Origin: Micromonospora sp. WMMD980
GTDB taxonomy: Bacteria > Actinomycetota > Actinomycetes > Mycobacteriales > Micromonosporaceae
DNA length: 64,000 bases
Reading direction: 5' to 3'
Assembly (NCBI RefSeq): GCF_029626035.1
Contig: NZ_JARUBE010000003.1
Span: forward strand, 5,456,001 to 5,520,000
This document shows, in pieces, positions 3,282-59,277 of this stretch. How positions within the stretch are numbered: the stretch's first letter is position 1; each line of letters begins with the position of its first letter. A model generated the notes under the pieces. It was not told the origin of the DNA. It saw nothing but the letters and a program-made list of their open reading frames with translations, and ran no database searches. The position numbers and the translations under genes are program-made.

Positions 3282-3334
3282 TAAGGAGGGGCCCCCTATT
3301 AACGCCTCCGGTAGAGGCGGGGCCCCCTCTTAAC
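3282..3334. repeat. GGGGCCCC interspersed inverted repeat, copy 1
   Basis: The left part TAAGGAGGGGCCCCCTATTA and the right part GGCGGGGCCCCCTCTTAACG flank a small inner hairpin (CGCCTC-loop-GAGGCG). It sits in the gap between the convergent phosphatase and DUF6458 genes. It belongs to the same family as the copies at 9541, 19604, 52174 and 59221. It probably acts as a two-way terminator here. Confidence 0.8.
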
Positions 3335-3343
3335 GGGGCGACG

Positions 3344-3613
3344 TCAGGACGGCGGGGCCGTCGGCGGCGGCGGGTCGGGCGGCGGCGGCATCATCGCGGT
3401 CGGGTGCGAGAGCCGGTTCTCCTCCACGATGAGGGTGCGGGCCCGCTTGCGGCGGTCCTGCCAGAACCACAGCGTGGTCAACAGGACGCCCAGCCCGGCC
3501 AGGATGAAGACCCAGCCGACCGCGCGTAGGTCGATCCACCAGACGTTGGCCCGGATGGCGAAGGTCATGATCGCGCCGAGCGCGATGAGAAAGATGGCGC
3601 TGCCAATGCCCAT
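3344..3613 (-). CDS. DUF6458 family small membrane protein (copy 2)
   Basis: An 89-residue paralogue of the protein at 2339-2629. It shares MGIGSAIFLIALGAIMTFAI, a second hydrophobic segment (VGWVFILAGLGVLLTTLWFW) and a basic boundary (QDRRKRAR), then a proline-rich tail. The two copies are similar across the membrane part and differ in the tail, so they look like an old duplication. No function can be assigned from sequence. Confidence 0.85.
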   Translation of the reverse strand: MGIGSAIFLIALGAIMTFAIRANVWWIDLRAVGWVFILAGLGVLLTTLWFWQDRRKRARTLIVEENRLSHPTAMMPPPPDPPPPTAPPS

Positions 3614-3714
3614 GTGCGCTGCACTCCCCCGTGCGGTGGCCCTTGGGCGTGCTCCGGTCGTGGTCCGCGACGGTTACCCGCCCACCGGCGCGCCTATCCA
3701 CCTGCCGGCCACCA

Positions 3715-3756
3715 ACGACGACGGCCGGCGGGATGTCGTCCGCCGGCCGTCGTCGT
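3715..3756 (-). terminator. Strong hairpin terminator of the fadE gene
   Basis: A perfect 17-bp stem (ACGACGACGGCCGGCGG against its complement) with an 8-base loop lies 45 bases past the stop of the FadE5-like gene on its strand. Confidence 0.8.
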
Positions 3757-3800
3757 GAGGGGGAGAATGATGCTTCAGGGGAGGATCACCCCGGAAGGGG

Positions 3801-5657
3801 TCAGAACGCCTCCTCCGGGAGGTCCATGATCTCCAGGTCGGCGCCCTCGATGATCCGCCGGTCCGCGCCGATGCGGGGCAGCACCTCGCGGGCGAAGAAC
3901 CGGGCCGCCGCCACCTTGCCGGTGTAGAACGCCTTGTCGGTGGTGGAAACCTCACCGCCGAGCGCCTTCAGCGCCACGTCCGCCTGCTTCTGCAGCAGCC
4001 AGCCGACCACCAGGTCACCGATCGCCAGCAGGAACCGGCGGCTGCTCAGGCCGACCTTGTAGAGCGCGCGGGCCTCGCCGGCCTGGGCCTCGCCCAGCCA
4101 GCCGGTCATCACGCCGAGGATGTTCTGGATCTCGGAGAGCGCCTTGCCGAGCGCCTGGCGCTCCTCCTTGAGCTGGCCGTTGCCGGCCTCGGAGGTGATG
4201 TGCTCCTGGATCTCGCCAGCGACCGCCATCAGGGCCTTGCCGTTGTCCCGGACGATCTTCCGGAAGATCAGGTCGAGGCTCTGGATGGCCGTGGTGCCCT
4301 CGTAGAGGGTGTCGATCTTGGCGTCCCGGACGTACTGCTCCAGCGGGTAGTCCTGGAGGAAGCCGGAGCCACCGTACGTCTGGAGCGACTCGTGGCCGAG
4401 CAGCTCGTACGCCCGCTCCGAGCCGACGCCCTTGACCAGCGGCAGGAGCAGGTCGTTGACCCGCTTGGCCAGCTTGGTGGCCTTCTCGTCACCGGCCGCC
4501 TCGGCGATCGCGACCTTGTCCTGCCAGCTCGCGGTGTAGCAGACCAGCGCGCGCAGGCCCTCGGCGTACGACTTCTGCATGAGCAGCGAGCGGCGCACGT
4601 CCGGGTGGTGGGTGATGGTCACCCGGGGGGCGGTCTTGTCGGCCTGCTGGATGAGGTCGGCGCCCTGCACGCGGTTCTTGGCGTACTCCAGCGCGTTCAG
4701 GTAACCGGTGGAGAGCGTGGCGATGGCCTTGGTGCCGACCATCATCCGGGCGTACTCGATGATCATGAACATCTGGCGGATGCCGTCGTGCTTGTCGCCC
4801 AGCAGCCAACCCTTGGCCGGTACGCCGTGCTCGCCGAAGGTCACCTCGCAGGTGTTGGAGACCTTCAGGCCCATCTTGTGCTCGACGTTGGTGGCGTAGA
4901 CGCCGTTGCGCTCGCCCAGCTCGCCGGTCTCGGCGTCGAAGTGGAACTTCGGCACCACGAAGAGGGACAGGCCCTTGGTGCCGGGGCCGCCGACGCCCTC
5001 CACGCCGACCGGGCGGGCCAGCACGTAGTGCACGATGTTGTCGCTCAGGTCGTGCTCACCGGAGGTGATGAAGCGCTTGACGCCCTCGATGTGCCAGGTG
5101 CCGTCCGGCTGCTGGACCGCCCGGGTGCGGCCGGCGCCCACGTCCGAGCCGGCGTCCGGCTCGGTCAGCACCATGGTCGAGCCCCACTGCTTCTCGATGA
5201 AGAGCCGGGCCCACTTCTTCTGCTCGTCGTTGCCCTCGACGTGCAGCACGTGCGCGAAGGACGGGCCGGAGGCGTACATCCAGACCGGGGCGTTGGCGCC
5301 GAGCACCAGCTCGGCCAGCGACCACCAGAGGGCGCGCGGGGCGTTCGTGCCGCCGAGCGCCTCGGGCAGGTCGAGGCGCCAGAACTCGGAGTCCATGAAC
5401 GCCTGGTAGGACTTCTTGAACGACTCCGGCAGCGGCGCGGTGTGCGTGGCCGGGTCGAAGACCGGCGGGTTGCGGTCGCTGTCCGTGTAGCTGGCGGCCA
5501 GGTCCTCGCGGGACAGGCGGTCGACCTCGGAGAGGAAGCTGCGGGCGGTGTCGACGTCCAGATCCGTGTACGGCTCCTGGCCGAACGTCCGGTCCGCCCC
5601 GAATACCTCGAACAGGTTGAACTCGAGGTCCCGAAGGTTGCTCTTGTAGTGGGTCAT
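3801..5657 (-). CDS. FadE5-like acyl-CoA dehydrogenase
   Basis: A 618-residue flavin acyl-CoA dehydrogenase of the long FadE5 type (mycobacterial FadE5 is about 611 residues). The FAD/substrate motif [17 protein letters not shown] is near residues 162-178. The catalytic glutamate is in [14 protein letters not shown], about residue 453. About 160 further residues form the extra C-terminal helical domain of this subfamily. It catalyses the first step of fatty-acid beta-oxidation and passes electrons to ETF. Two palindromes lie directly upstream; one has the same GTTAC-N6-GTAAC design as the site before the EtfD-like gene at 27481-29679, which would take the electrons to the respiratory chain. 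Confidence 0.92.
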
Positions 5658-5684
5658 GCTCGCTGGCCCCGCTTCCGGACAGGT

Positions 5685-5700
5685 GTTACCGATCAGTAAC
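5685..5700. promoter_or_regulatory. Putative operator GTTAC-N6-GTAAC before the fadE gene
   Basis: The 16-base site GTTACCGATCAGTAAC has 5-bp inverted arms and lies 28 bases upstream of the fadE start. The same spacing and arms occur at 29728-29743 before the EtfD-like gene. The TetR-like size and symmetry suggest a fatty-acid regulator; no regulator gene is adjacent. Confidence 0.55.
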
Positions 5701-5711
5701 TCCAGACTGTA

Positions 5712-5729
5712 TTACTCGCCGGTAGGTAA
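5712..5729. promoter_or_regulatory. Second palindrome TTACNNNCCGGNNNGTAA before the fadE gene
   Basis: An 18-base inverted repeat with arms TTAC/GTAA and centre CCGG. It lies 55 bases upstream of the fadE start and next to the 5685 site, so the two may form a double operator. Confidence 0.4.
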
Positions 5730-5773
5730 CGACAAGCCGATCTCGGAAGTGACAGCGATTACACACTTCCGGT

Positions 5774-6901
5774 TCACCCGTCGGCGGCACCGACCTCCCA
5801 GCTCGGCACCGGGGCCGCGGCGGAGCTGCGCGGGCCGGCGTATTCCATCAGGACCAGGGCGATGTCGTCGTCGAGGCGGCCGTGCACCCACTCGACGAGC
5901 GCGGTCTCCAGCGAGGCGAGCCCGTCGCCGACCGTGCCGTGACCGAGCAGCCGCCAGGCCCGGTCGGCGGTCGGGAAGAACTCGCCGTCGCGCCGGGCCT
6001 CGCCCAGCCCGTCGGTGAACAGCAGCAGCCGGTCACCCGGTTCCAGCCGCTCCACCCGGGGCCGGACCACCGGCATGAAGCCGAGCGGCGGCGCGGGCGC
6101 CGGCGGCTCCAGCGGGATCACCTGGCCCCGGCGCAGCAGCAGCGGCGGCGGGTGCCCGCAGTTGACGATGGTGAGCGTGCCGCCGCGCTCCTCGACCAGC
6201 GCGGCGGTGACGAAGTCCTCGTCACCGACGTTGCGGGCCACCGCCCGGTCCAGGTCGGTCACCACCGCGCGCAGGTCGGCCCGCTCGTAGGCGACGTGCC
6301 GGTAGGAGCCGAGCACGATGCTGGCGAGCCGGACCGCGTCCAGGCCCTTCCCGCGCACGTCCCCGATGATCATGCGGACGCCGTACGGGGTGTCCATCAC
6401 CTCGTACAGGTCGCCGCCGATCTCGGCGGTCGCGGTGGAGGAGATGTAGCGCGCGGCCACCGCCAGCGTGCCGACCTGCGGGCCGAGCGGACGCAGCACC
6501 GCCTGCTGGGCCACCGAGGCGAGCCGGGACAGCTCCGCGATCCGTTCCGCCTGTCGCTGCCGCACCGCGGCCGTGGCGGCGGCGATCGCGGTGACCAGCG
6601 CGATGGCGGCCACGCTGACCGCGGTCACCAGCGAGGCGCCCCGTTCGCACATCGCGAAGGCGACGCCGGCCGAGGTCGCCAGCGCCCCGACCGCGAGCAC
6701 CACCCGCCAGTCGGCCAGCGCGGCGGCCAGGACCGGGGCGGCGGCCATCAGCGCGAGGTAGTGCGCCGGCCGGCCGTCACCCGCCTCCACGGCCGAGACG
6801 ATCGCGAGCAGCGCGAGGGCCGCGCCGAGGCCGGCGCGGGATCCGGGGCTCAGCGGGCCGTGGCCCGGCTGGAAGGGTCGAGTGCGTACATCGGACAGCA
6901 T
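5774..6901 (-). CDS. SpoIIE-type PP2C phosphatase with N-terminal membrane domain
   Basis: A 375-residue protein. The first about 115 residues hold several hydrophobic helices, followed by a short linker (QRQAERIAELSRLA) and a PP2C/SpoIIE domain. The metal-site motifs are visible: EIGGDLYEV near residue 160, IIGDVRGKGLDA near 178, and FTDGLGEARR near 305. The C-terminal DDDIALVLMEY is the last family motif. Such proteins dephosphorylate anti-sigma-factor antagonists in partner-switching systems. No kinase or antagonist gene is adjacent, so the partner is unknown. It lies downstream of rlpA on the same strand with a 68-base gap. Confidence 0.88.
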   Translation of the reverse strand: MLSDVRTRPFQPGHGPLSPGSRAGLGAALALLAIVSAVEAGDGRPAHYLALMAAAPVLAAALADWRVVLAVGALATSAGVAFAMCERGASLVTAVSVAAIALVTAIAAATAAVRQRQAERIAELSRLASVAQQAVLRPLGPQVGTLAVAARYISSTATAEIGGDLYEVMDTPYGVRMIIGDVRGKGLDAVRLASIVLGSYRHVAYERADLRAVVTDLDRAVARNVGDEDFVTAALVEERGGTLTIVNCGHPPPLLLRRGQVIPLEPPAPAPPLGFMPVVRPRVERLEPGDRLLLFTDGLGEARRDGEFFPTADRAWRLLGHGTVGDGLASLETALVEWVHGRLDDDIALVLMEYAGPRSSAAAPVPSWEVGAADG

Positions 6902-6969
6902 GCCTGATGGATGTGAGACGGAGAATGAACCTGGCCCGTCCGTCGCGGAAGTTCTGCCTGACGGGCCGG

Positions 6970-9385: not shown

Positions 9386-9592
9386 ATGTGGCCCCGCATC
9401 GGTGGACTGCGTGCGCTCGCCCTCGGCACCCCGGGCGGGCTGCGCGCCGACCTGAACAACCTCGTGCTCGCCGGCGTGAAGACCGCCACCGCCGGGCTGA
9501 TCGGCGAGTACGCCGAGGAGAACGAGGAGTTGGCGGCACGTAAGGAGGGGCCCCTTCTTAACGCATTCTGCATAAGAAGGGCCCCCTCCTAA
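9386..9592 (+). pseudogene. Truncated ASCH-domain gene fused into a repeat element
   Basis: About 50 residues match the start of ASCH-domain proteins: MWPRIGGLRALALGTPGGL, then NNLVLAGVKTATAGLIGEYAE and ENEEL. Family members continue for about 100 more residues, but here the frame runs directly into the GGGGCCCC element at 9541-9592, which also supplies the TAA stop. The next gene begins 4 bases later on the other strand. The missing part could have been deleted when the element or the neighbouring gene arrived. It has a plausible -10 (TAGCCT) and may still be transcribed. Confidence 0.7.
9541..9592. repeat. GGGGCCCC interspersed inverted repeat, copy 2
   Basis: The clearest copy: a 20-base left arm TAAGGAGGGGCCCCTTCTTA, a 12-base loop, and the right arm TAAGAAGGGCCCCCTCCTAA, which is the complement with two mismatches. 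It forms the 3' end of the truncated ASCH frame and lies 4 bases from the stop of the next convergent gene. Confidence 0.85.
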
Positions 9593-9595
9593 CAC

Positions 9596-10471
9596 CTAGC
9601 GGCGCAGCTCCGGCAGCAGCGCGGCCACCTCGGCCAGCACCGCCTCGTCGCCGGCGTACCAACTGCTGGCTCGGGGCCAGTGCGTCACCACGTCGGTGAA
9701 GCCCAGCCGGGCCGCCCGGGCCACCTGCTCGGCGAACAGGTCGGCGCTGGTCAGCGAGAAGACCGGGGCCGAGTCGAGCGAGAGGTAGCGGTCGAGCGTG
9801 GCCGGATCCCGGCCGGCCTCATCGAGCGTCCGGGTCATCCGTTCGGACAGCTCCGCCACCGTGCCCCACCAGCCCTCCAGGTCGTCGCCGCCGAGGCCGG
9901 TGGTGACCCAGCCCTGCCCGAACCGGGCGACCAGCCGCATCGAGCGGGGCCCGTTCGCCGCCAGCACGAACGGCACCCGGGGCCGCTGGACGCAACCGGG
10001 GTTGTTGCGGGCGTCCACCGCGGCGAACCACTCCCCGCGCCAGGTCGTGCCGTCCTCGCGCAGGATCAGGTCGAGCAGCTCGGTGAACTCGGCGAACCGG
10101 TCCACCCGCTGCCGGGGCGGCAGCGTCTCCCCGCCCAGCACCGCCGAGTCGAAGCCGATGCCGCCCGCGCCGAGCCCGAGCAGCACCCGGCCGCCGGAGA
10201 CGTCGTCCAGCGCGGTGACCTGGCGGGCGAACGCCGCCGGGTGGCGGAAGTTCGGCGAGGCGACGAGCGTGCCGAGGCGGACCCGGGAGGTCACCGTCGC
10301 CGCCGCGGTCAGCGTCGTCCAGGAGTCGAACCAGGGCCCGTCGACCAGGTCACGCCAGCCCAGGTGGTCGTAGGTCCAGGCGTGGTCGAAGCCCCACTCG
10401 TCCGCCTGGGCCCACCGGTGACGCGCCTCCGACCAGCGCTGGTCGGGCAGGATCACGATGCCAATTCGCAT
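9596..10471 (-). CDS. F420-dependent LLM-class oxidoreductase (internal start of the fused frame)
   Basis: If translated alone from ATG 10471, this gives a 291-residue luciferase-like, F420-dependent oxidoreductase (TIGR03560-like). Key parts are GFDHAWTYDHL near residue 30, RVRLGTLVASPNFRHPA near 70, and GGRVLLGLGAGGIGFD near 98, the flavin/F420-binding region. VPFVLAANGPRSMRLVARFGQGW follows near 185. A complete N-terminus suggests this was an independent gene. F420 use and substrate are from the family only. Confidence 0.75.
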   Translation of the reverse strand: MRIGIVILPDQRWSEARHRWAQADEWGFDHAWTYDHLGWRDLVDGPWFDSWTTLTAAATVTSRVRLGTLVASPNFRHPAAFARQVTALDDVSGGRVLLGLGAGGIGFDSAVLGGETLPPRQRVDRFAEFTELLDLILREDGTTWRGEWFAAVDARNNPGCVQRPRVPFVLAANGPRSMRLVARFGQGWVTTGLGGDDLEGWWGTVAELSERMTRTLDEAGRDPATLDRYLSLDSAPVFSLTSADLFAEQVARAARLGFTDVVTHWPRASSWYAGDEAVLAEVAALLPELRR

Positions 10472-11575
10472 GATCGCCAGGGTACGACCCGGGCCGGACA
10501 TGCCGGCCCGGGTCGGTCGATCACCCGCCACGTCGGCCACCACGCAGGCGACGTTGTCCGGCGCGCCCGCCGCGTAGGCCAGCTCGACAAGCTTCCCGAC
10601 GGCGGTCTCCGGGTCGTCCGCCCCGGCCAACGCGGCGTGCAGCGCGCCGGGGGCGACGGTCGCGGAGAGGCCGTCCGAGCAGAGCAGGTAGCGGTCGCCG
10701 GGCAGCGCCGTACGCAGCGCCAGGTCCGCCTCCACCTCGCCGCCCGCGCCCAGCGCCCGGGCCAACAGCGCCCGCTGCGGGTGCGCGCCCGCCTCGGCCG
10801 GGGTGAGCCGCCCCTGGTCGACGAGGGTCTGCACGTACGTGTGGTCCTGGGTGAGCCGGGTCAGCTCGCCGCCGCGCAGCAGGTAAGCCCGGGTGTCCCC
10901 GACGTGCACCAGCGCGAGCCGGGTGCCCCGCCGCACGATCGCGGTGAGTGTGCTCGCCGGCCGGTCGTCGTCGGCGCCCTGGGCGCGTACCGCCCGGTCG
11001 GCCCGGGTCACCGCGTCGGCCAGCGCGGCGAGCAGGTCGGCGGCCGGGGCGTCGGCCCGCTCCAACGGCCGCAGCGCGTCCACCGCGGCGGCGCCGGCGG
11101 CGGCCCCACCCGGACCGCGTACGCCGTCGGCGACCGCGAGCAGCGTGTCGCTCGCGTACGCGGTGTCCTCGTTGGAGTCCCGGACGGCGCCGGTCTCGCA
11201 GCGCGTCGCGTACCGGAAGGTGGTGTTCTCGGACATGGTGCTGCCCCTCTCGGTGAGCTGGTCGACGAGGAGCGCGACGGTCCGGCCGCGGGCGGCGGTG
11301 TCCGCGCTGACCCGCCGCCACCAGGCGTCCAGCGCCTCGGCGGCGTCGTCCGGCGGCAGGGCGCAGACGGTCCGGATCTCCGCCAACGGCATGCCGGCCC
11401 GGCGCAGCGCGGCGATCAGCCGGGCCCGGTCGAGCTGCTCCGGCGCGTAGTAGCGGTAGCCGGAGTGCGGGTCCACGGCGGCCGGCGGCAGCAGCCCGCA
11501 GTCGTCGTACACCCGCAGCGCCTTGGCGGTCAGGCGGGCCGCCCGGGCGAACGCCCCGATGGTCAGCAACCGCAT
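9596..11575 (-). CDS. Continuous MerR - PP2C phosphatase - F420-dependent oxidoreductase frame
   Basis: One open frame of 659 codons encodes three domains. Residues 1-70 are a MerR helix-turn-helix (MRLLTIGAFARAARLTAKAL, YYAPEQLDRARLIAALRRAGMPLAEIR). Residues about 115-355 are a PP2C domain (GAVRDSNEDT, LVHVGDTRAYLLRGGELTRL, YLLCSDGLSATV, GAPDNVACVVADV), close in sequence to the PstP at 39982. The last 291 residues are an F420-dependent luciferase-like oxidoreductase starting MRIGIVILPDQ. No stop separates PP2C from the oxidoreductase, but a 12-bp hairpin sits at the junction. Start ATG 11575 has GAAGGAGG upstream. In the PP2C part, the usual DGMGG loop is changed to ADGVRGPGG. This may be a true triple fusion or two genes whose stop was lost. 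Confidence 0.72.
   Translation of the reverse strand: MRLLTIGAFARAARLTAKALRVYDDCGLLPPAAVDPHSGYRYYAPEQLDRARLIAALRRAGMPLAEIRTVCALPPDDAAEALDAWWRRVSADTAARGRTVALLVDQLTERGSTMSENTTFRYATRCETGAVRDSNEDTAYASDTLLAVADGVRGPGGAAAGAAAVDALRPLERADAPAADLLAALADAVTRADRAVRAQGADDDRPASTLTAIVRRGTRLALVHVGDTRAYLLRGGELTRLTQDHTYVQTLVDQGRLTPAEAGAHPQRALLARALGAGGEVEADLALRTALPGDRYLLCSDGLSATVAPGALHAALAGADDPETAVGKLVELAYAAGAPDNVACVVADVAGDRPTRAGMSGPGRTLAIMRIGIVILPDQRWSEARHRWAQADEWGFDHAWTYDHLGWRDLVDGPWFDSWTTLTAAATVTSRVRLGTLVASPNFRHPAAFARQVTALDDVSGGRVLLGLGAGGIGFDSAVLGGETLPPRQRVDRFAEFTELLDLILREDGTTWRGEWFAAVDARNNPGCVQRPRVPFVLAANGPRSMRLVARFGQGWVTTGLGGDDLEGWWGTVAELSERMTRTLDEAGRDPATLDRYLSLDSAPVFSLTSADLFAEQVARAARLGFTDVVTHWPRASSWYAGDEAVLAEVAALLPELRR
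10486..10514 (-). terminator. Perfect 12-bp hairpin at the PP2C / oxidoreductase junction
   Basis: GACCCGGGCCGG pairs perfectly with CCGGCCCGGGTC around a 5-base loop. It lies about 15 bases before the oxidoreductase ATG, inside the continuous frame. It looks like an intergenic hairpin, which supports two original genes. Confidence 0.5.
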
Positions 11576-13639: not shown

Positions 13640-13643
13640 CGCG

Positions 13644-19008: not shown

Positions 19009-19587
19009 ATGCTGCTCTCCGACCGCGACCTGGTCTCCGAGATCAAGGCGGGCACGCTCGCGCTGGAGCCCTTCGAGCCCACGCTGGTGCAGCCGTCCAG
19101 CATCGACGTACGCCTGGACCGGTTGTTCCGGGTCTTCAACAACCATCTCTACACGCACATCGACCCGTCGGTGCAGCAGGACGACCTGACCTCGATGGTG
19201 GAGGTGCCGGAGGGGCAGCCGTTCGTGCTGCACCCGGGCGAGTTCGTGCTCGCGTCCACGCTCGAGGTGATCTCGCTCGGCGAGGAGTTGGCCGGCCGGC
19301 TGGAGGGCAAGTCCTCGCTGGGACGGCTCGGCCTGCTGACGCACTCCACCGCCGGCTTCATCGACCCGGGCTTCTCCGGGCACGTCACATTGGAGCTGTC
19401 CAACGTGGCGAACCTGCCGATCACGCTCTGGCCGGGCATGAAGATCGGTCAGCTGTGCATCTTCCGGCTCTCGTCGCCGGCCGAGCACCCGTACGGCTCG
19501 GCCGTCTACGGCTCGCGCTACCAGGGCCAGCGCGGCCCCACGCCGAGCCGCTCCTGGCAGAGCTGGCGCACCTGGCCGACGCGCTGA
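19009..19587 (+). CDS. dcd: dCTP deaminase (probably bifunctional with dUTPase)
   Basis: A 192-residue trimeric dCTP deaminase, supplying dUMP for thymidylate synthesis. Typical blocks are [18 protein letters not shown] near residue 26, [12 protein letters not shown] near 80, [15 protein letters not shown] near 95-109 and [20 protein letters not shown] near 111-130. The catalytic Glu is in [15 protein letters not shown]. The mycobacterial homologue of this length carries both deaminase and dUTPase activity. TATGGT lies 6 bases before the ATG, so the mRNA may be leaderless. The last residues ([13 protein letters not shown]) are family-variable. Confidence 0.93.
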
Positions 19588-19603
19588 CGCCGCCCGCCGC
19601 CTG

Positions 19604-19654
19604 TTAAAAGGGGCCCCCTGTTATGCGGAATGCGTTAACAGGGGGCCCCTCCTT
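19604..19654. repeat. GGGGCCCC interspersed inverted repeat, copy 3
   Basis: Left arm AAAAGGGGCCCCCTGTTA and right arm TAACAGGGGGCCCCTCCTT around a 12-base loop (TGCGGAATGCGT). It lies between the convergent dcd and NlpC/P60 genes, 5 bases from the latter's stop. Confidence 0.85.
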
Positions 19655-19659
19655 GCACC

Positions 19660-20694
19660 TCAGCCGGGGCGGCCGTAGCTGTTGATGTCGCCGTCGTCGA
19701 CGCGCTTCATCGTGATGGGCTTGCCGGACTGGGAGGCGTGCACCACCCAACCGTCGCCGACGTACATGCCCACATGGTGCAGGTCGCCGTAGTAGAAGAC
19801 CAGGTCGCCGGCGCGCAGCTCGGCGCGGCTGACCCGCCGGGTGACGTTGTGCTGCTGGCGGGCGTTGTGCGGCAGCGAGACGCCGGCCTTCGCCCAGGCG
19901 GCCATGGTCAGGCCGGAGCAGTCGAAGTGGTCCGGGCCGGCGGCGCCCCAGACGTAGATCTTGCCGATCTGGGCGCAGGCGAACTTGACCGCCACTCCGG
20001 CCGCGCCGCCGGGATACCCGGACGGGCAGGGCGCCGGACGCAGCGGGCCGCCACCGCCGTTGCCGTAGACCTTGAGCCGCAGCTTCTGCAGCTTGGCGAT
20101 CTCGGCGTCGATCTGCTTCTTCTTCGCCGCGAGCTGCGCCTCGGTGCGACTGAGGTCGGCGACCATCGCGTCCAGCGGCTTCTTCTTCGCGGCCAGCTCG
20201 TCGCGGAGTTCGGCGATGTCGCGCACCTGCTCCTGCTGGTGGTGCGCGAAGCGGTCGAGCATCTCCAGGCCGCTGACCAGCTCGCTCGGCGAGCGGCTGC
20301 CCAGCAGGGCGTTCACGGTCGAGAGGTTGTCGCCCTTGTACGCGTCGGCGGCGAGCCCGCCGACCTGCCCGAGCGCGGCGTCCACCCGCGCCTGCAGCGG
20401 GGTGATCTGCCTACCGAGCGCGTCGGCCTGCCGGCGCCGCACCGCGAGCTGCTCGCGTACGGCGTTGACCTGCTCGATGACGGGTTCGAGCTTGTTCCAG
20501 TCGCGGTCGATCTGGGCCTCGATCTCGGCGACCGAGGGTTCGGCGTGGGCCGCCGTCGCGCCACCGGTCATGACGACCGCGGCGCCGACCAGTGCGGCGA
20601 GTGTGGTGGTGAAGCGGGACCAGCGGGAACGCGGCACGACCACGGACCGGTCGATCGACCGGCTCGACGTCGGCCGCGGGGCATGGTGTGCCAC
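19660..20694 (-). CDS. Secreted NlpC/P60 endopeptidase under a c-di-AMP riboswitch
   Basis: A 344-residue RipC-type peptidoglycan hydrolase. It has a signal segment (LAALVGAAVVMTGGATAAHA), a long coiled coil (about residues 50-200, with IEAQIDRDWNKLEPVIEQVN), then a C-terminal NlpC/P60 domain with catalytic Cys in HFDCSGLTMAAWAK and His in GDLHHVGMYVGDGW. It should cleave D-Glu-diaminopimelate links in stem peptides. Start GTG 20694 follows GAAGGAG directly downstream of the riboswitch at 20719-20834. A close paralogue at 23176-24186 lacks that switch. Confidence 0.92.
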   Translation of the reverse strand: MAHHAPRPTSSRSIDRSVVVPRSRWSRFTTTLAALVGAAVVMTGGATAAHAEPSVAEIEAQIDRDWNKLEPVIEQVNAVREQLAVRRRQADALGRQITPLQARVDAALGQVGGLAADAYKGDNLSTVNALLGSRSPSELVSGLEMLDRFAHHQQEQVRDIAELRDELAAKKKPLDAMVADLSRTEAQLAAKKKQIDAEIAKLQKLRLKVYGNGGGGPLRPAPCPSGYPGGAAGVAVKFACAQIGKIYVWGAAGPDHFDCSGLTMAAWAKAGVSLPHNARQQHNVTRRVSRAELRAGDLVFYYGDLHHVGMYVGDGWVVHASQSGKPITMKRVDDGDINSYGRPG

Positions 20695-20718
20695 CGGGCG
20701 TCCGTACTCCTTCGTCTG

Positions 20719-20834
20719 ACCGCCTACCGGGTTAGCTGACGGGTTCGGGCGGGAAGGGAGCCGCCCTACCGCAGTGGCTGCGGATTCACCCCAGGTACCT
20801 GGGTCCCCGGTTCGCCCGTGGGCGACTCGGCGGT
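20719..20834 (-). ncRNA. ydaO-yuaA-type c-di-AMP riboswitch
   Basis: On the minus strand, the outer stem pairs ACCGCC (20834-20829) with GGCGGT (20724-20719). The conserved core is visible: CGCCGAGTC at the 5' side, CCGGGGACCCA, GGGGTGAATCCG, and the hallmark CAGCTAACCCGGTAGGCGG at the 3' side. It ends a few bases before the Shine-Dalgarno of the NlpC/P60 gene. In other actinobacteria this class controls cell-wall hydrolases and usually turns expression off when c-di-AMP binds. Confidence 0.92.
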
Positions 20835-21075
20835 GTCGGACCGTCACCGCCCGGGTTGGACGATGAAACTGGCGGCCGACGATTGACCAGAGTAGGTACC
20901 TCCGTTATCGATCCGCAACCCGAACGGCAGTGACACTCCGTACCCAATATCTGACGCGAGACGCGAGTGAAGCTTTCTTTCACGCAACTTTCAACACCGG
21001 AAAGGTATTGACCGACGCGGGTGCCCGGAGTGAGGGTGGGAACGCAGTGACCCCCATCCCTGTCCAGGAGGTTCG
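20835..21075. promoter_or_regulatory. Divergent promoter region, NlpC/P60 and amidase genes
   Basis: About 240 bases of lower GC than the surrounding genes, with AGCTTTCTTTCACGCAACTT near 20971-20990 and GGTATTGACC near 21005. Both divergent cell-wall genes must start transcription here. No convincing paired -35/-10 could be fixed by eye. Confidence 0.4.
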
Positions 21076-50523: not shown

Positions 50524-52149
50524 ATGGCCAGACGGGGCTGGGGAGGATCGACCGCCGCCGCGCTCGGCGTGGCTGCCGGAGCGGGCGCCGCGCAGCTCGG
50601 CTTCGGCTACGGGCTCGGCATCATCAACTGGGCGCCCACCGGCGCCGTGCGGGTCGAGTCGGCCTGGGTGGCGAGCCTCGCCTGGGCCACCTGGATCGCT
50701 GCGACCTCGGTCGTCGTCGGTGCGGTCTGTGCACAGCGCCTGCGCGGCGGCGACGAACCGGTGGGCACGCTGCCCCGGCTCGGGATCGCGCTCGCCGCAG
50801 GTGTCGGCGCGCTGGTCACCGTGCTGCTGGTGGCGGTGCCGGCGCGAGCGGCCCGGGTGCCGGACACGACCGCGCCGCAGACCGTCGCCGCCGCCTACGC
50901 CGCGGCCGGCCTGGTGCTCGGCGTGCTGTTGGCGACCTGGGCGCTGCACACCCGCGCCGCCGCTACGAACCTGTTGGCCACCACCGGCTGGCTCTGGCTG
51001 CTCGCCGTGGTGTCGGTGGTGGACGGGGTGCTCTCCGGCCGGGGTCTCACCACCGCACAGCTCGGCATCTGGCAGATCAGCGCGGACCGCGCCGGGTTCT
51101 GGATCCGCGACTACTTCTACTGGCCGGGGGCACTGCTCTCGCTGGGCTCCGCCCTGCTGATCGGCGTGCTGGCCGCCCGCCGCGCGGCGCGGTCGCCCCG
51201 GGCACGCGTCGGCGTGACCGCCTCCGGGGCGGCCGGTCCGCTGCTGGTCGCGCTGGCCTACCTGCTGGCCGTGCCGCGGCTGGCCGGGATCGCCGCCGAG
51301 CAGTTGTCGGCCCACCTGATCGCCCCGTACGCGGTGATCGCCGGCGTGGGCGGCTCGGCCCTGGTGGCCGCGCTGGCTCAGCGGTCCGACCGGCGCGCCG
51401 CGGACCGCACGTCGGCGGCCGGGCCCGACCAAAACGGCGGGGACCCGGAGCCGGGCAACGAGAAGCGCGGCTCCGACGAGGCGCGCGGCTCCGACGAGGC
51501 GCGCAGGGCCGCCGAGGAGCGCAGGGCCGCCGAGGAGCGCAGGGCCGCCGAGGAGCCGCTGGCCGGCGGGCAGCAGCCGGCCGGGACGAGGCCGGCCGGG
51601 CGGTTCTTCCGGCGTCGCGCCGCGTCCGCCACCGCGCCGACCTCCGGGAACCGACCGGGCGGCGCGGCCGACGGGACCGGGACGACTGACGTCCCGGCTT
51701 CCACCGGAAGCCGACCGGACAGTGGACGGACTCCGGTGGAGGTGTCGGGTCCGCCCGGCGGGCCGGCGCCTGCGACCGAGCACGACCCGGAGGCGACGGC
51801 AGGCTCAGGCCGCGACGCCCTGACCGGCTCGGGTCGCGACGCGGTACGCGGCCCAGGTCGCGACGCGCCGACCGGCTCGGGCCGCGACGCGGTCACGGCG
51901 GATGAGCAGGGCGGGACGGCGAGCCGCGCCGGACGGGCGTCCGACGGGCAGGCGGGACCGTCGGGCGGGGCCGGGCCGTCGGGCGGGGGCGCGCGGTCGA
52001 CCGCCGCTCGTCGGAGCCGGGCGGTGCCGCAGCAGCGGCAGTCCGACGACGCGCCGCAGGTCAGCACCACCGACCGGGCCGCTGTCGACGAACCGGAGAC
52101 CGGGGACGCCACGGTCGCCGAGCCGAAGAGCCGTCGCCGTACCCGCTGA
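50524..52149 (+). CDS. Membrane protein with repeat-rich cytoplasmic tail
   Basis: A 541-residue protein. The first about 290 residues contain about eight membrane helices (for example TAAALGVAAGAGAAQLGFGY; AAGLVLGVLLATWALHT; LLVALAYLLAV). The tail is low complexity, with EERRAA repeated three times near 335-350 and GSGRDAxTG-type units repeated four times near 430-460, then a basic end (KSRRRTR). No known domain is recognised. The repeats are in-frame DNA repeats that can expand or contract. Confidence 0.68.
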   Translation: MARRGWGGSTAAALGVAAGAGAAQLGFGYGLGIINWAPTGAVRVESAWVASLAWATWIAATSVVVGAVCAQRLRGGDEPVGTLPRLGIALAAGVGALVTVLLVAVPARAARVPDTTAPQTVAAAYAAAGLVLGVLLATWALHTRAAATNLLATTGWLWLLAVVSVVDGVLSGRGLTTAQLGIWQISADRAGFWIRDYFYWPGALLSLGSALLIGVLAARRAARSPRARVGVTASGAAGPLLVALAYLLAVPRLAGIAAEQLSAHLIAPYAVIAGVGGSALVAALAQRSDRRAADRTSAAGPDQNGGDPEPGNEKRGSDEARGSDEARRAAEERRAAEERRAAEEPLAGGQQPAGTRPAGRFFRRRAASATAPTSGNRPGGAADGTGTTDVPASTGSRPDSGRTPVEVSGPPGGPAPATEHDPEATAGSGRDALTGSGRDAVRGPGRDAPTGSGRDAVTADEQGGTASRAGRASDGQAGPSGGAGPSGGGARSTAARRSRAVPQQRQSDDAPQVSTTDRAAVDEPETGDATVAEPKSRRRTR

Positions 52150-52173
52150 TCCCGCCGTTACCCGTGGAGCGCG

Positions 52174-52229
52174 TGTTGAGCGGGGGCCCCGCCTCTACCG
52201 CAGGCGTTAACAAGGGGCCCCGCCTTGCA
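52174..52229. repeat. GGGGCCCC interspersed inverted repeat, copy 4
   Basis: GTTGAGCGGGGGCCCCGCC on the left and AACAAGGGGCCCCGCCTTG on the right, around CTCTACCGCAGGCG. It lies between convergent genes and ends 3 bases before the stop of the GCS2-family gene. Confidence 0.8.
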
Positions 52230-52231
52230 CC

Positions 52232-53710
52232 TCAGTCGACGGGCCAGGTGTGGACGGGCTCGTTGGTGCGTTGAAGCTCGGCGTAGCGCTGGACCATGTG
52301 GTGCAGCGCGGCCGTCCGGTCCATCCCGCGGTGCCGCTCGGCCGCCCACACCGTCTCGGTCTGCCAGACCGCGCCGTTGCGGCCGGTACGGCAGCGCCCC
52401 TCGATCACGCCGAGGAGGCGGTCCCGCTCGGCCGGGGCGACGCCGAACCCGTCCAGCCCTTGCGCGGCCACCGGCAGCAGCGTGTCGAGGACGAGCGTGG
52501 TGACCGGCACGTCGCCGAGCCGGGGCCAGTGCAGCACCGCGTCGATGCCGCGCCGGGCGGCGGCGTGGAAGTTCTCCTCGGCCGAGGAGAACGTGAGCTG
52601 GCTCCAGATGGGGCGTTCCGCCTCGGCGAGGCCGCGGGCGAGGCCGAAGTAGAACGCGGCGTTGGCGAGCATGTCCACCACGGTCGGGCCGGCGGGCAAC
52701 ACCCGGTTCTCCACCCGCAGGTGCGGGCGGTCGTTCATGATGTCGTAGACCGGGCGGTTCCAGCGGTAGACGGTGCCGTTGTGCAGCCGCAGCTCACCGA
52801 GCTGGGGCACGCCGCCGGCGTGCAGCACCTCGACCGGGTCCTCCTCCTCGCAGATCGGCAGCAGCGGCGGGAAGTAGCGGACGTTCTCCTCGAACAGGTC
52901 GAAGATCGAGGTGATCCAGCGCTCGCCGAACCAGACCCGCGGGCGTACGCCCTGGGCCTTCAACTCGTCCGGCCGGGTGTCGGTGGCCTGCTCGAACAGG
53001 GCGATCCGGGTCTCCGCCCAGAGCTGGCGGCCGTAGAGGAACGGCGAGTTGGCGCCGACGGCGACCTGGACGCCGGCGATCGCCTGGGAGGCGTTCCAGT
53101 GGTCGGCGAAGCTGTCCGGCGCGACCTGGAGATGGAACTGGAGGCTGGTGCAGGCCGCCTCGGGCGCGATCGAGTCGGTATGCGTACGCAGCCGCTCGAC
53201 GCCGTTGATGTCCAGCTCGATGTCCTCGCCGCGGGCGCCGACGATCTGGTCGTTGAGCACCCGGTAACGCTCGTCGGTGGAGAGGTTGTCGGCGACCAGG
53301 TGACGCTCGGTGAGGGTAGGCAGGATGCCGACCATCACGATGGTGGCCTCGGACTTGGCGGCCCGCTCGTCGGCGCGGCTGAGGCTGCTGCGCAGATCCT
53401 GCTCGTAGTCGGTGAACCCGGTGCCGTCGATCAGCCGGGGCGACGCGTTCAGTTCGAGGTTGAACCGGCCCAACTCGCTCTGAAAGAGCGGGTCGGCGAT
53501 GTCGGCCAGGATCTGGTCGTTGCGCATGGCCGGCTCGGCGGCGGCGTCGACCAGGTTCAACTCGATCTCCAACCCGGTCATCGGCCGGTCGGCGTCGAAG
53601 CCGAAGTCGTCGAGCATCAACGCGAAGACGTCCAGGCACCGCCGGACCTTCTGCCGGTAGCGGACCCGATCCTCGCGGGAGAAGGCGCCCTGCTCGACGT
53701 CCCTGCCCAT
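52232..53710 (-). CDS. Glutamate-cysteine ligase family (GCS2/YbdK-like) protein
   Basis: A 492-residue protein of the GCS2 superfamily. The N-terminal LEIELNLVDAAAEPAMRN near residues 47-64 and FNLELNASPRLIDG near 82-95 carry acidic ATP-Mg ligands. LQFHLQVAPDSFADHWNAS near 195 and HNGTVYRWNRPVYD near 350 are family-like. It joins glutamate to an amine, cysteine or amino acid; the substrate is not readable. ATG 53710 follows GGGAGG. Actinomycetes have several paralogues including ergothioneine EgtA and mycothiol-unrelated enzymes. Confidence 0.85.
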   Translation of the reverse strand: MGRDVEQGAFSREDRVRYRQKVRRCLDVFALMLDDFGFDADRPMTGLEIELNLVDAAAEPAMRNDQILADIADPLFQSELGRFNLELNASPRLIDGTGFTDYEQDLRSSLSRADERAAKSEATIVMVGILPTLTERHLVADNLSTDERYRVLNDQIVGARGEDIELDINGVERLRTHTDSIAPEAACTSLQFHLQVAPDSFADHWNASQAIAGVQVAVGANSPFLYGRQLWAETRIALFEQATDTRPDELKAQGVRPRVWFGERWITSIFDLFEENVRYFPPLLPICEEEDPVEVLHAGGVPQLGELRLHNGTVYRWNRPVYDIMNDRPHLRVENRVLPAGPTVVDMLANAAFYFGLARGLAEAERPIWSQLTFSSAEENFHAAARRGIDAVLHWPRLGDVPVTTLVLDTLLPVAAQGLDGFGVAPAERDRLLGVIEGRCRTGRNGAVWQTETVWAAERHRGMDRTAALHHMVQRYAELQRTNEPVHTWPVD

Positions 53711-54628: not shown

Positions 54629-54639
54629 GTATTGCTAGG

Positions 54640-55137: not shown

Positions 55138-55263
55138 GCCGCCGTTACCCGTGGGTCACCGGCAGAACGACCGGCAGAACCGGCTTGTCGCGCGGGCAAA
55201 AGACCGTAAGCGCCGACAAAAGGTTCGACGTGTCTGGATAGGCTGCCGAAAGCGGGGGGCACC

Positions 55264-55330: not shown

Positions 55331-55359
55331 CGCCCTCTCGGGAGCCCCACCGGCTCCGG

Positions 55360-57906
55360 TCACGCCCACCGCGCGCGTCCCCGCTGCGCCACCAGGGAAT
55401 AGAGCAACTCCTCCTCCCGGGGCAGCAGACTGACGCCGGTGACCTGCCGCGCCCGGTCCAGCCGGTCCAGCACGGCCACCTCCCCGGTGCTGGCCGCCAA
55501 CCCCACGAGGGCCTCGACCAGATCCCGCCGGTCGGCGGCGCCGGCCGCCGCTTCGGCCGCCGCGGCGAACCACTCCGCCGCCAGCTCCCGATCCCCCCGA
55601 TTCAACGCCACCTGGCCCTCGATCAACGCCCGGAGCGCGTCCCCGGTGCGGACGCCCCGGCCGGCACCGGGCGGATCCCACCGCTCGACCGCCGACGGGC
55701 GACGCGGGCCGGGTACCTGGTTCGACGGCCACAGCTCGGCCACCGCCGCCAACGCCTCGTCGTCCCGCCCCTGGAGCGCGAGCGCCAGACCGACGCCGCC
55801 GATCGTCCGGCGGCGCCGACCCGGGTCACCCAGCTCGACGAGCGCGGCCGCCGCCCGCCGCCCCTGCTCGGCCGCCTCGGCGTAGCGGCCCTCCAGCCGG
55901 GACAGCTCGGCGAGGTCGGCCCGCGCCAGCAACCGGAGCCGCTGGTCCCCGCACTGCGCGGCCAGCCGGTCGACTGTGGCCAGCCGCCGCCGGCCGCCGG
56001 CCAGCTCCCCCACACGTACGTCGTGCCAGGTCAGATGGTGCTGGGCGACCGCCATCTCGCGTACCCGACAGTGCCGGGTGGCCAGCGCCAGCGCCGCCTC
56101 GGCCTGCTCCCGGGCCTCGTCGTGCGCGCCCAGCCCGCGCAGCACCGCGCAGAGCACCGACCGGGCGGACAGCTCCCCGGTCACGTCGCCGGCCTCGGCG
56201 AAGACGGCCAGCGCCGTCCGCGCCGCCGGCAGTTCCTCTGGCCCCGCCCCGTGCTCGGCGGCCAACCGGGCCGAGCCGAGCAGCGCCCAGGCCCGCAGCA
56301 CCGGCGGCGCCCCGGCGGTACGCGGATCGGCCAGCAACCGACGCAGCCAACGGCGGCCCGAGACGTCCCGTCCCCGCAGCCGCCACCACCGAGGCAGCGC
56401 GGCAGCCAGCAACAACGCGATCGCCGGGGCGTCCTCGGCGGCGTACGCCAGCGCGGCGCTGATGTCACCGGTCGCCTCGTCCAGCAGGTGCACGGTGCCC
56501 GGCAGCTCGGCGCCGACCAGGCCGGGCGCGGTGCGCCGGACCAGCCCGGCGATCACCGACGCGTGTCGCAGCCGGATGCCCGCCGTCTCGAACTCCAGAT
56601 CGGCCTGCTCGGCCGCGAAGTCGCGGACCGCGTCCAGAAGCCGGAACCGGAACGGGCCGGCACCCCGGACGCTGAGCAGGCCCAGCTCCCGAAGCCGGTC
56701 CAGCAGCGGAGCCGCATCCCACCGGTGGCCGCCCTCGGCGAGCAGGTCCTCGGCCAGCTCCACCGACCAGCGGTTGCGGAACGCGGACAGCCGGCGCAGC
56801 GCGGCACGGTCGGCGGAGGCGAGCAGGTGATAGCTGGTCGCCACCGCCTCCCGCAAGGTCACCGTGCCGGCGACCGGATCGGCCGGCTCCCAGCCGGGGC
56901 GCACGCCGGCCAGGTCGAGGACGCGGTCGCCGTAGCGGTCCAGCAGCTCGGTGACATCGAGGATGCGGCCCCGCGCGGCCATCAACTCGATCGCCAGGGG
57001 CAGCCCGCCCAGGCGGCGCACCAGCGCGGCGAGTGCCGGCAGCTCGGCCCGGGTGGGTGGCGCGTGCCGAGCCTGGGTGAACCGGGCGGCGAAGAGCGCG
57101 GCGGCGGGCCAGCGGTCCAGTTCGGCGCGGTCCGCGGGATCCATGCCGGCCGGCGGCACGTCGAGCGGCGCGACCGGCCGGACCAGCTCGCCGGAAAGCC
57201 CGACCGGCCGGCGGCCGGTCACCAGCACCCGCAGGCCCGGCGCGGCCTCGGCCAGCGACCGCAGCGCCTCGGCCACCGCTTCGGGCGCCCGGTCGACGGC
57301 GTCGACCAGCAGCAGCGCCGGCCGGTCGGCGAGCCGGCAGGAGAGGTCGGCGAGCCGGTTCACGCCGAACACCGACGTCGAGGCGGCGAGCACGTCGGCG
57401 GCGTCCGAGCCCTCGCCGACCAGCACTCCGGCCACCCCGGCCGGGTGTCGGGCCGCGACCGCGTGGGCGACGGTGAGCGCGAGCGCGGTCTTGCCGACGC
57501 CGGCCAGACCGACCAGGCTCACCACCGGATAAGCGTCGAGCAGGGCGGAGACCTCGGCCGTGTCGCGCTCCCGGCCGAGCAGTGGCATGGGCTGGGGCAG
57601 CGCGACCGGCGTCCCCGGATCGGGTTCGACCTCGACCGGCGCGGCGGCGGCCGGCCGGGCGGCGGCGACGAACTCCCGCCGGGAGGCGCCGGTCAGGCCG
57701 AGCGCGTCGGCGAGTAGATCGACAGTGGTGCGTTGGGGCCGGGTGGCCCGGCCCCGCTCCAGGTCACGGACGGTCCGCACTCCCACGCCCGCCCGGTCGG
57801 CCAGGTCGGCCTGGGTCAGGCCGGCGACGAGCCGATGCCCACGCAACAGATCGGACAGCGGTGTCCGGCCAGCCGGGCCCCGCGAACGATCATGGTCGGG
57901 AGTCAT
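55360..57906 (-). CDS. XRE - ATPase - TPR transcriptional regulator
   Basis: An 848-residue regulator. An N-terminal XRE helix-turn-helix (about 15-75; LSDLLRGHRLVAGLTQADLA, GVGVRTVRDLERGRATRPQR) is followed by an NB-ARC/AAA-type NTPase (about 110-400). Its Walker A is LVGLAGVGKTALAL and Walker B is ALLLVDAVD. The rest is a TPR-like helical array with many Ala/Leu/Arg repeats. This is the layout of actinomycete AfsR-like/LuxR-like signal-transducing ATPases, but the DNA-binding part is XRE, not SARP. The target is unknown. ATG 57906 is the best start; GTG 57942 is possible. Confidence 0.85.
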   Translation of the reverse strand: MTPDHDRSRGPAGRTPLSDLLRGHRLVAGLTQADLADRAGVGVRTVRDLERGRATRPQRTTVDLLADALGLTGASRREFVAAARPAAAAPVEVEPDPGTPVALPQPMPLLGRERDTAEVSALLDAYPVVSLVGLAGVGKTALALTVAHAVAARHPAGVAGVLVGEGSDAADVLAASTSVFGVNRLADLSCRLADRPALLLVDAVDRAPEAVAEALRSLAEAAPGLRVLVTGRRPVGLSGELVRPVAPLDVPPAGMDPADRAELDRWPAAALFAARFTQARHAPPTRAELPALAALVRRLGGLPLAIELMAARGRILDVTELLDRYGDRVLDLAGVRPGWEPADPVAGTVTLREAVATSYHLLASADRAALRRLSAFRNRWSVELAEDLLAEGGHRWDAAPLLDRLRELGLLSVRGAGPFRFRLLDAVRDFAAEQADLEFETAGIRLRHASVIAGLVRRTAPGLVGAELPGTVHLLDEATGDISAALAYAAEDAPAIALLLAAALPRWWRLRGRDVSGRRWLRRLLADPRTAGAPPVLRAWALLGSARLAAEHGAGPEELPAARTALAVFAEAGDVTGELSARSVLCAVLRGLGAHDEAREQAEAALALATRHCRVREMAVAQHHLTWHDVRVGELAGGRRRLATVDRLAAQCGDQRLRLLARADLAELSRLEGRYAEAAEQGRRAAAALVELGDPGRRRRTIGGVGLALALQGRDDEALAAVAELWPSNQVPGPRRPSAVERWDPPGAGRGVRTGDALRALIEGQVALNRGDRELAAEWFAAAAEAAAGAADRRDLVEALVGLAASTGEVAVLDRLDRARQVTGVSLLPREEELLYSLVAQRGRARWA

Positions 57907-58007
57907 GGGCACGAAGAGTACGGACGGGATCCGACGCTCCACAGCCGATCGTCAACCACCCGACCGTATGACGCCGATATCCGACAGACGGCCGAGGCGG
58001 GCGGCGG

Positions 58008-59162
58008 TCACATGCCGAGGTCGCGCGCGATGATCATGCGCTGCACCTCGCTGGTGCCCTCGCCGATCTCCAGGATCTTGGAGTCGCGCCAGAAGCGGGC
58101 GACCGGGTACTCGTTCATGAAGCCGTAGCCGCCGTGGATCTGGGTCGCCTCCCGGGCGTTGTCCACCGCGACGGTGCTGGCGTGCAACTTGGCGATCGCC
58201 GCCTGCCGCTTGAACGGCTCGCCGGCGAGCATCCGGGCGGCCGCGTCGTAGTAGGCCAGCCGGGCGGTGTGCGCCTTCATCTCCATGTCGGCGATCTTGA
58301 ACTGGATCGCCTGGTAGTTGCCGATCGGCTGGCCGAACGCCTGACGCTCCTTGGCGTACTTGATCGACTCGTCGACGCAGCCCTGGGCCAGGCCGACGGC
58401 GAGCGCCGCGATGGCGATCCGGCCCTCGTCCAGGATGCGCAGGAACTGGGCGAAGCCCCGACCGCGCTCGCCGAGCAGGTTGGCCGCCGGCACCCGGCAG
58501 TCGTCGAAGGTCAACTCGTGGGTGTCCGAGGCGGTCCAGCCGACCTTGGAGTAGCCGGGCGCGACGGTGAAGCCGGGCGTGCCGGACGGCACGATGATGG
58601 TGGACAGCTCCTTGCCGCCGTCCGGCCGGGTGCCGGTCACCGCGGTGACGGTGACCATCGCGGTGATGTCGGTGCCGGAGTTGGTGATGAACGCCTTCGA
58701 ACCGTTGATCACCCACTCGTCCGTCGCCTCGTCGAGCACCGCCCGGGTCTGGGTGCCGCCGGCGTCGGAGCCGGTGCCCGGCTCGGTCAGCCCGAAGCCG
58801 GCCAGCGCCTCACCGCTGAGCAGCTTCGGCAGCCAGCGCGCCTTCTGCTCCTCGGTGCCGAAGCGGTAGATCGGCATCGCGCCCAGCGACACCGCCGCCT
58901 CCAGGGTGATCGCCACGCTGGAGTCAACCCGGGCCAACTCCTCCAGGGCCAGGCAGAGCGCGAAGTAGTCACCGCCCATGCCGCCGTGCTCCTCGGCGAA
59001 GGGCAGGCCGAACAGGCCCATCTTGCCCATCTGCCGAATGACCTCGTACGGGAAGGTGTGCTTCTCGTAGTGCTCGGCGATCACCGGGGCGACCACCTCG
59101 CGGGCGAAGTCCCGGACGCTCTCCCGCAGCGCCTGCTGCTCCTCGTCGAGCCGGAAGTCCAT
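58008..59162 (-). CDS. Acyl-CoA dehydrogenase (isovaleryl/short-chain type)
   Basis: A 384-residue flavin dehydrogenase of the standard size. Motifs: MDFRLDEEQQALRESVRDFA at the start, GFGLTEPGTGSDAGGTQTRA near 120-139, ITNSGTDI near 158, and IHGGYGFMNEYPVARFWRD near 340-358. The catalytic Glu is in EIGEGTSEVQRMIIARDLGM at the C-terminus. Neighbours (carboxyltransferase, HMG-CoA lyase, biotin carboxylase) point to leucine breakdown, where isovaleryl-CoA is the substrate. Related butyryl-CoA enzymes cannot be excluded. Confidence 0.9.
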   Translation of the reverse strand: MDFRLDEEQQALRESVRDFAREVVAPVIAEHYEKHTFPYEVIRQMGKMGLFGLPFAEEHGGMGGDYFALCLALEELARVDSSVAITLEAAVSLGAMPIYRFGTEEQKARWLPKLLSGEALAGFGLTEPGTGSDAGGTQTRAVLDEATDEWVINGSKAFITNSGTDITAMVTVTAVTGTRPDGGKELSTIIVPSGTPGFTVAPGYSKVGWTASDTHELTFDDCRVPAANLLGERGRGFAQFLRILDEGRIAIAALAVGLAQGCVDESIKYAKERQAFGQPIGNYQAIQFKIADMEMKAHTARLAYYDAAARMLAGEPFKRQAAIAKLHASTVAVDNAREATQIHGGYGFMNEYPVARFWRDSKILEIGEGTSEVQRMIIARDLGM

Positions 59163-59220
59163 GTCGATCCTCCTGGGAAGGGGCGGGCCGCCGGCGCTCG
59201 TGACACCGGGAGCGGCTGAA

Positions 59221-59277
59221 GCGTTAAGCGGGGCCCCTTCCTCTGCACCAGGCGTTAAGCGGGGGCCCTTCCTTACC
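59221..59277. repeat. GGGGCCCC interspersed inverted repeat, copy 5
   Basis: GCGTTAAGCGGGGCCCCTTC and GCGTTAAGCGGGGGCCCTTC appear as near-direct copies here, both containing the core, around CTCTGCACCAG. It lies between the carboxyltransferase stop and the acyl-CoA dehydrogenase start on the same strand, so it may separate the two transcripts. Confidence 0.78.

Follow-up and report, generated by a model that had tools for sequence, protein, structure and literature searches.

The window analysed here comprises 64,000 nucleotides of Micromonospora sp. WMMD980 (G000:C3:5456001-5520000, in a genome of 6.83 Mb designated G000), and contains five copies of an inverted-repeat element of around 60 bp each. 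All five had been reported in a first-pass annotation, at positions that differed from ours by only a few bases, and our own gene calls agree with the context it described, in that four copies sit in the gap of a convergent gene pair and the fifth separates two genes of the same orientation (Table 1).

Table 1. The element and its neighbouring features in the window (window coordinates; scores from the covariance model), followed by composite elements (coordinates of contig G000:C3)
Feature	Position	Strand	Score (bits)	Remarks
Copy A	3276..3338	+	82.4	training copy of the model
Histidine-phosphatase gene, owner of A	2747-3277	+		stop TGA 3275-3277 directly before element
DUF6458 gene, convergent neighbour of A	3344-3613	-		Pfam match
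Copy B	9535..9597	+	76.0	best hairpin among the five
Short frame, flank of B	9386-9592	+		runs through left arm
Convergent gene, flank of B	9596-11575	-		
Copy C	19599..19661	-	76.3	
NlpC/P60 gene, owner of C	19660-20643	-		stop TGA 19660-19662 directly before element
dcd gene, convergent neighbour of C	19009-19587	+		
c-di-AMP riboswitch	20705-20842	-		Rfam RF00379
Copy D	52171..52233	-	79.5	
Owner gene of D	52232-53710	-		GCS2 match barely over cut-off; stop TGA 52232-52234 directly before element
Convergent neighbour of D	50569-52149	+		no Pfam match
Copy E	59219..59281	-	68.2	after TGA 59280-59282, end of carboxyltransferase reading frame
Carboxyl transferase gene	59224-60813	-		domain match stops at residue 452/529
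Next gene after E, same strand	58008-59162	-		
Composite element	924554-924633			two opposite copies overlapping or sharing an arm, BIME-like
Composite element	3613173-3613252			as above
Composite element	4459596-4459676			as above
Composite element	6076693-6076773			as above

The short gene flanking copy B is about 256 bp shorter than in the relative G157, its frame then running into the left arm of the element; in the G157 orthologue, the element provides the stop codon, TAA. The convergent gene on the other side of copy B joins MerR, PP2C and luciferase-like oxidoreductase domains in one open frame, which some Micromonospora match over its full length and others just in the oxidoreductase part. 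The riboswitch listed in Table 1 lies upstream of the NlpC/P60 gene. The expected C-terminal end of the carboxyl transferase is found in another frame, and this gene looks frameshifted upstream of copy E, unless the assembly is in error.

One oriented family in the genome

The left arm, with at most one mismatch, was found 253 times in the whole genome, a count in which a symmetric copy can score on both strands, and the reversed control was not found at all. The proposal that the copies belong to a dispersed family, for which about ten copies per genome had been set as the lower limit, is thus borne out by some 250 copies, with hundreds at 3' ends.

Alignment of 18 copies from a 464-kb sample (the window together with twenty 20-kb stretches of the same genome) produced a single oriented consensus of about 60 bp with 22 invariant columns, GGTGTAAGG-A-GGGGCCCC-YKS-TTAACGCC…GGTAGAG…GGGGCCCC…TTAACACC. 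Read inward, its ends are GGTGTAAGG and GGTGTTAAG, inverted terminal repeats as found in miniature inverted-repeat transposable elements (MITEs). Of the original description as an inverted repeat, the paired GGGGCCCC cores stand, but the element is directional, its arms differ from one another and pairing beyond the core is often imperfect. When a covariance model trained on these 18 was rerun on the 464 kb, it recovered the same 18, at 68-85 bits, and the remaining 16 matches (16-36 bits) were the opposite strand of these copies, so that the model picked up no partly decayed copy in this sample. In the search of the whole genome with the model, all of the best 150 candidates scored were matches. 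Among the best ~150 copies listed per genome, none falls between positions of about 1.0 and 1.5 Mb on G000:C3 or on G157:C1.

The word GGGGCCCC occurs 536 times in the genome, as compared with 295 for the reversed word. In the 464 kb, 36 of 37 raw pairs of GGGGCCCC-like cores (several pairs per element) were spaced by 29-32 bp, a peak that was absent with four control cores. Neither lone units nor any of five half-motifs tested outside full elements were present in this sample, and four composites sharing an arm are known from the entire genome (Table 1). No Rfam family overlapped the window copies at the gathering score, nor did the interval 3230-3380, around copy A, produce a match at E 1. 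In a larger alignment of 77 copies from the genome, chosen by pattern with at most one left-arm mismatch, 18 of 64 columns are wholly invariant, adjacent triplets show two to four letters, and variants of the left and right arms combine nearly independently.

The two cores pair with each other in the RNA fold of the consensus. Predicted stability is clear for copy B (-34.7 and -40.2 kcal/mol; z -6.4 and -6.0 versus shuffles) and copy C (z around -5) and weak for copy A (z -1.6, -2.2), with copies D (z -2.0, -1.0) and E (z -1.0, 0.2) folding little or no better than shuffles. Covariation between arms is weak in this genome, with columns 23-42 paired in 66% of cases versus 51% expected; the other pairs of the 77 copies were near expectation, and strong RNA-type covariation was absent. 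In another genus of the same family, g32, the left core reads GGGCACC in 8 of the 10 genomes searched, and it is partnered by the complementary word, GGTGCCC, in 327 exact matches from 8 of the 10 genomes (at least three palindromes of G289 entering this count on both strands), as opposed to 66 matches, from 6 of the 10, in which the partner is a non-complementary direct repeat, GGGCACC. Therefore, a core hairpin is favoured about five to one but is not required. Neither core form was found in the g32 genomes G181 and G291. The flanks keep one constant orientation in g32 genomes (G215, G234 and others) with the right arm in complementary or in direct-repeat form.

Gene ends, orthologous slots and distribution

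Using our own gene caller and a frame test (a sense stop within -30 to +40 of AAGG), we found a sense coding frame ending beside the element in 59 of the 77 copies, as compared with 154 of 4,000 random positions in long stretches. Stop codons concentrate at offsets +5 (22 copies), -2 (16), 0 (8) and -20 (4) from AAGG, with rarer cases at 3, 4, 6 and 8 (7 together) and at 16 and 18 (2). At offset +5 a TGA stands immediately before GGTGT, and at -2, 0 and -20 the stop, TAA or TGA, is furnished by the element itself. The other 18 copies had no adjacent sense coding frame by this test, and some of them may follow short genes. In 32 of the 77 copies, an antisense coding frame ended no more than 200 nt away from the right end, versus 440 of 4,000 random positions.

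The element occurs beside 24 of 371 gene ends, counting both genes of a convergent pair. Ordinary hairpins (stem of at least 11, one mismatch allowed) follow 66 of the 347 element-free ends, against 4 of 347 in shuffled sequence, and 41 of these 66 begin 5-19 nt past the stop. Gene-end hairpins in this genome are thus of two visible kinds, the element and the ordinary hairpin. As in intrinsic terminators, a GC hairpin is present directly after the stop codon, its folds being weak in copies A, D and E.

In 46 genomes of the genus, the dcd/NlpC slot (site C) carries the element in 26 (up to four left-arm mismatches) and lacks it in 20; an inverted repeat (stem of at least 10 with one mismatch) was present in 17 of these 20 slots, against 53 of 400 shuffled sequences. 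The filling of the same slots by ordinary hairpins in other species lends indirect support to the earlier suggestion that the element is used as a terminator. One species (L075) has an older hairpin and the element together in one slot, and G001 has an identical slot. At site A, genomes G113 and G150 carry a short hairpin that takes in the stop codon. At site B, the stops of the two genes touch, with no element, in some Micromonospora, and in other close species the element occurs in either orientation. The place that the element occupies at site D in other species is taken in G081 by a long AT-rich palindrome, GATATGCCTC...GAGGCATATC, close to the end of L172; G119 has a diverged form.

Site E has the element in 8 of 17 located genomes and none in 9; together with the unoccupied site B, these are empty orthologous sites in relatives, which the first-pass annotation had named as something that would favour mobility. 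Within the twelve-genome clade around G000, 8 of 10 examined members are occupied, versus none of the 7 located outside it, so that acquisition of the copy probably dates to the base of the clade. In both empty members, G081 and G019, the flanks resemble those of the outgroup, a sign that recombination may have affected this site. In G157, 39 of 40 located orthologous junctions were occupied in the same orientation, in a set biased to shared sites, as many regions were picked for model hits in both genomes; some gaps are ambiguous, and 37 copies of G000 had no located orthologue. The fortieth junction, scored as empty, had a negative gap and came from a region fetched through a model hit in G157.

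Among 151 genomes of the genus, 75 had matches, 52 of them at least ten (13 to 300), and 76 had none. Matches extended to 41 of 200 genomes, and 7 of 44 genera, of the family. In a draw from the phylum, there was a single match in 1 of 394 genomes of other genera, with the reversed control appearing once in each of four genomes, and 16 other members of the order had none with the covariance model and strict filters. The element is therefore patchy within Micromonosporaceae, and was not found outside it among the genomes drawn. Copy number is strongly unlike between close sister species, with copy-rich and copy-poor genomes paired in, for example, G066/G139, G150/G113, G119/G081, G152/G047 and G104/G004. 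On a tree of 46 genomes, a minimum of 12 changes is required to explain richness (at least ten matches) and a minimum of 11 to explain whether the dcd slot is occupied; a test of this tree against shuffled labels says little, because the genomes were hand-picked for close contrasts between rich and poor. Several copy-poor genomes stayed at control level with three mismatches allowed, which suggests that simple decay may not explain every absence; one of them, G139, with a background count, nevertheless holds a relic past the three-mismatch limit, so that decay may yet be the cause.

Constraint and erosion of the sequence

At the five window sites, 1 of 90 fixed left-arm letters, counted by eye, differs from G157, against a background of 11.4% at third codon positions and 7.7% at aligned intergenic bases. 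Likewise, in 33 ungapped pairs from the two genomes (mean flank identity 94.5%) conserved columns differ by 1.6%, a biased lower bound because pairs that were clipped or had more than one mismatch were dropped. The argument for constraint rests, therefore, on the five window sites, the 33-pair set being filtered. Variable columns differ by 23.7% in these pairs, and so change faster than third codon positions, including a consistent shift from CTG/CTC in G000 to CGC in G157, in both arms.

Genome G081 is close to copy-rich relatives, and four of the five copies in 80 kb of its sequence show two to four left-arm mismatches. The fixed letters changed in four G081 copies are 6 of 24 A/T and 3 of 48 G/C, and those changed in ten genomes with the element are 0 of 174 A/T and 7 of 348 G/C; both counts cover all copies found in the compared stretches, excluding one old site. 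They replace an earlier tally in which copies were chosen by eye, four of the nine eroded ones coming from the old site, and which pointed in the same direction (nine eroded copies: 33 of 124 A/T and 12 of 207 G/C; seven intact copies: 6 of 98 A/T and 5 of 165 G/C). Genomes G089, G157 and G018 have the old site intact, and in G081, G022, G139, G158 and G049 it has two left-arm mismatches; its erosion does not track richness, because the copy-rich G119 and G066 are equally affected. In the sister pair G139 and G066, the copy of the former is eroded at a site where that of the latter is intact. Clear erosion is thus limited to the four copies in G081, plus single sites in other genomes. This pattern, mainly from one genome, is what would be expected if the A/T motifs were no longer needed where substitution favours G/C, but a GC bias by itself would also strip out the A/T letters ahead of the others.

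A candidate terminator and its alternatives

The Micromonosporaceae, antibiotic producers with GC-rich genomes, often terminate transcription with no U tract, which raises the question of how their transcripts end. What has to be explained here is a single oriented family, placed at stop codons in most copies, alternating with ordinary hairpins, constrained in sequence, eroded in one relative and patchily distributed. We propose, giving it about an even chance of being correct, that the element is a bidirectional terminator anchored on stop codons, with a putative, dispensable, sequence-specific trans-acting factor that would have been lost repeatedly. Each copy would work as a module at the 3' end of genes, most likely by terminating transcription in both directions with no U tract, a reading supported by their position, the hairpin and the alternation of slots. 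Counting against it are the weak covariation between arms, the 66 g32 matches with non-complementary cores, the poor folds of copies D and E and the weak one of A, the 18 of 77 copies beside which the frame test found no sense coding frame ending, and the erosion of the old site in the copy-rich G119 and G066. In the transcript of the owner gene, the two GGGGCCCC arms would pair into a hairpin that overlaps the stop codon or begins no more than about 12 nt from it; between convergent genes, the reverse strand is predicted to fold too, so that one copy could serve both. Conservation extends to A/T letters that surround the cores (AAGG, TTAAC, TAGAG/TATAG, TTAAC) and pair poorly, and these are eroded in a relative, which points to a putative RNA- or DNA-binding factor that would recognise the element. 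Species keeping this factor would hold tens to 300 copies; in those without it, the A/T letters would drift to G/C and the GC hairpin may remain. The approximately 250 near-identical gene-end elements constitute a natural experiment, since one species has them intact while its sister has lost them or lets them erode; comparing such genomes could help to single out a factor for termination or 3' ends, and the elements are candidate bidirectional terminator parts.

The strongest rival, given that gains occur and copy number changes fast, is a non-autonomous, MITE-like element with inverted ends of about 25 bp, spreading in bursts and adopted as a terminator, which we consider rather unlikely. 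Like MITEs, the element is short, non-coding and dispersed patchily, with similar inverted ends. Gains such as that at site E (8 of 10 examined clade members versus 0 of 7 outside), the older hairpin coexisting with the element in L075 and in the identical slot of G001, and a site B filled either way round in close species and empty in others make mobility possible, though they are not the main signal; a burst of gain would also yield the copy number differences between sister species, and the patchiness (52 of 151 genus genomes with at least ten matches, 76 with none; at least 12 changes on the tree of 46 hand-picked genomes) is in keeping with it. Conversely, 39 of 40 located sites, in a biased set, are common to G157, orientation follows the host gene, and a close relative retains eroded copies at shared sites; free insertion does not predict sense orientation flush with stop codons. 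Comparison by eye revealed no target duplication between filled and empty versions of site E and no clear one at site B, where AGGTG occurs on both sides in locus L035 but equals the element's own end. The empty site E of G081 and G019, with its outgroup-like flank, can have been created by recombination. No partner transposase was found with the one family searched (Y1_Tnp, PF01797), phages and plasmids (one 63-base query each) and viral contigs (one exact pattern) had no match within the limited sensitivity of these searches, and in a search for a parent element flanked by two copies, the intervals between ten inverted pairs in G000, and between pairs in four other genomes, contained nothing or a few called genes. 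Thus, of the mobility suggested in the first-pass annotation, the empty sites and the gains stand, but not mobility as the main account. Both readings could be combined in a mobile terminator landing precisely on stop codons in the sense orientation, with copies kept alike across the genome by a dispensable trans-acting factor; a species that lost the factor would then amount to a natural knock-out, its hundreds of terminators all decaying together into plain GC hairpins; this we regard as a speculative idea, about as improbable as a MITE-like origin.

Somewhat less probable still is a DNA-level recognition site (for nucleoid, gyrase, recombination or DNA-exchange functions), harmless at gene ends and with a secondary hairpin. 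Sequence is indeed more constrained than pairing, and the variable letters shift genome-wide between species, as with CTG/CTC to CGC between G000 and G157, in the manner of a dialect. In Neisseria and Haemophilus, pairs of DNA uptake sequences are used as terminators, the motif occurring also singly and inside genes, in thousands of copies. Our element resembles these as an inverted, sequence-specific motif at gene ends, with a consensus differing between species; however, it is a much longer unit in ~250 copies, not thousands, and lone half-sites, known from uptake sequences, are absent from the 464 kb. Most copies, moreover, touch a stop codon in sense orientation, arm complementarity survives the core change in most g32 matches, and the usual other state of the slot is an ordinary hairpin, all of which argue against a DNA site.

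Actinobacteria also have U-less, or I-shaped, intrinsic terminators, GC hairpins located just past the stop codon with no U run. That the copies are plain terminators of this type, merely sharing a strong GGGGCCCC stem, would agree with their use of the same slots as ordinary hairpins, just after the stop, and with the clearly stable folds of copies B and C and the weak one of A. We nevertheless judge it quite improbable, since the element is one conserved, oriented sequence in hundreds of copies, with its poorly pairing A/T letters constrained, and many sister species lack it and have other hairpins instead, the family being present or absent between sisters.

REP sequences and BIMEs of enterobacteria and pseudomonads are short palindromic units found outside genes, and often after them, in hundreds of copies, with composite arrays and a lineage-specific consensus. 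The same can be said of our element in that it is short, palindromic and dispersed outside genes in hundreds of copies, including some composites with a common arm, but an origin as REP/BIMEs that a RAYT (Y1 tyrosine) transposase mobilises is highly improbable. Profile PF01797 had 0 matches in this genome and was positive in 5 of 14 control genomes, and an origin of this kind is ruled out here as far as that profile can see; furthermore, lone units are absent from the 464 kb. The element, which may have been described already, resembles both REP/BIMEs and U-less terminators, apart from the RAYT result, the absence of lone units from the sample and its tie to stop codons. Unlike REP/BIMEs, it is a two-arm unit of about 60 bp that lies in sense orientation and, in most copies, has its left end anchored at a stop codon.
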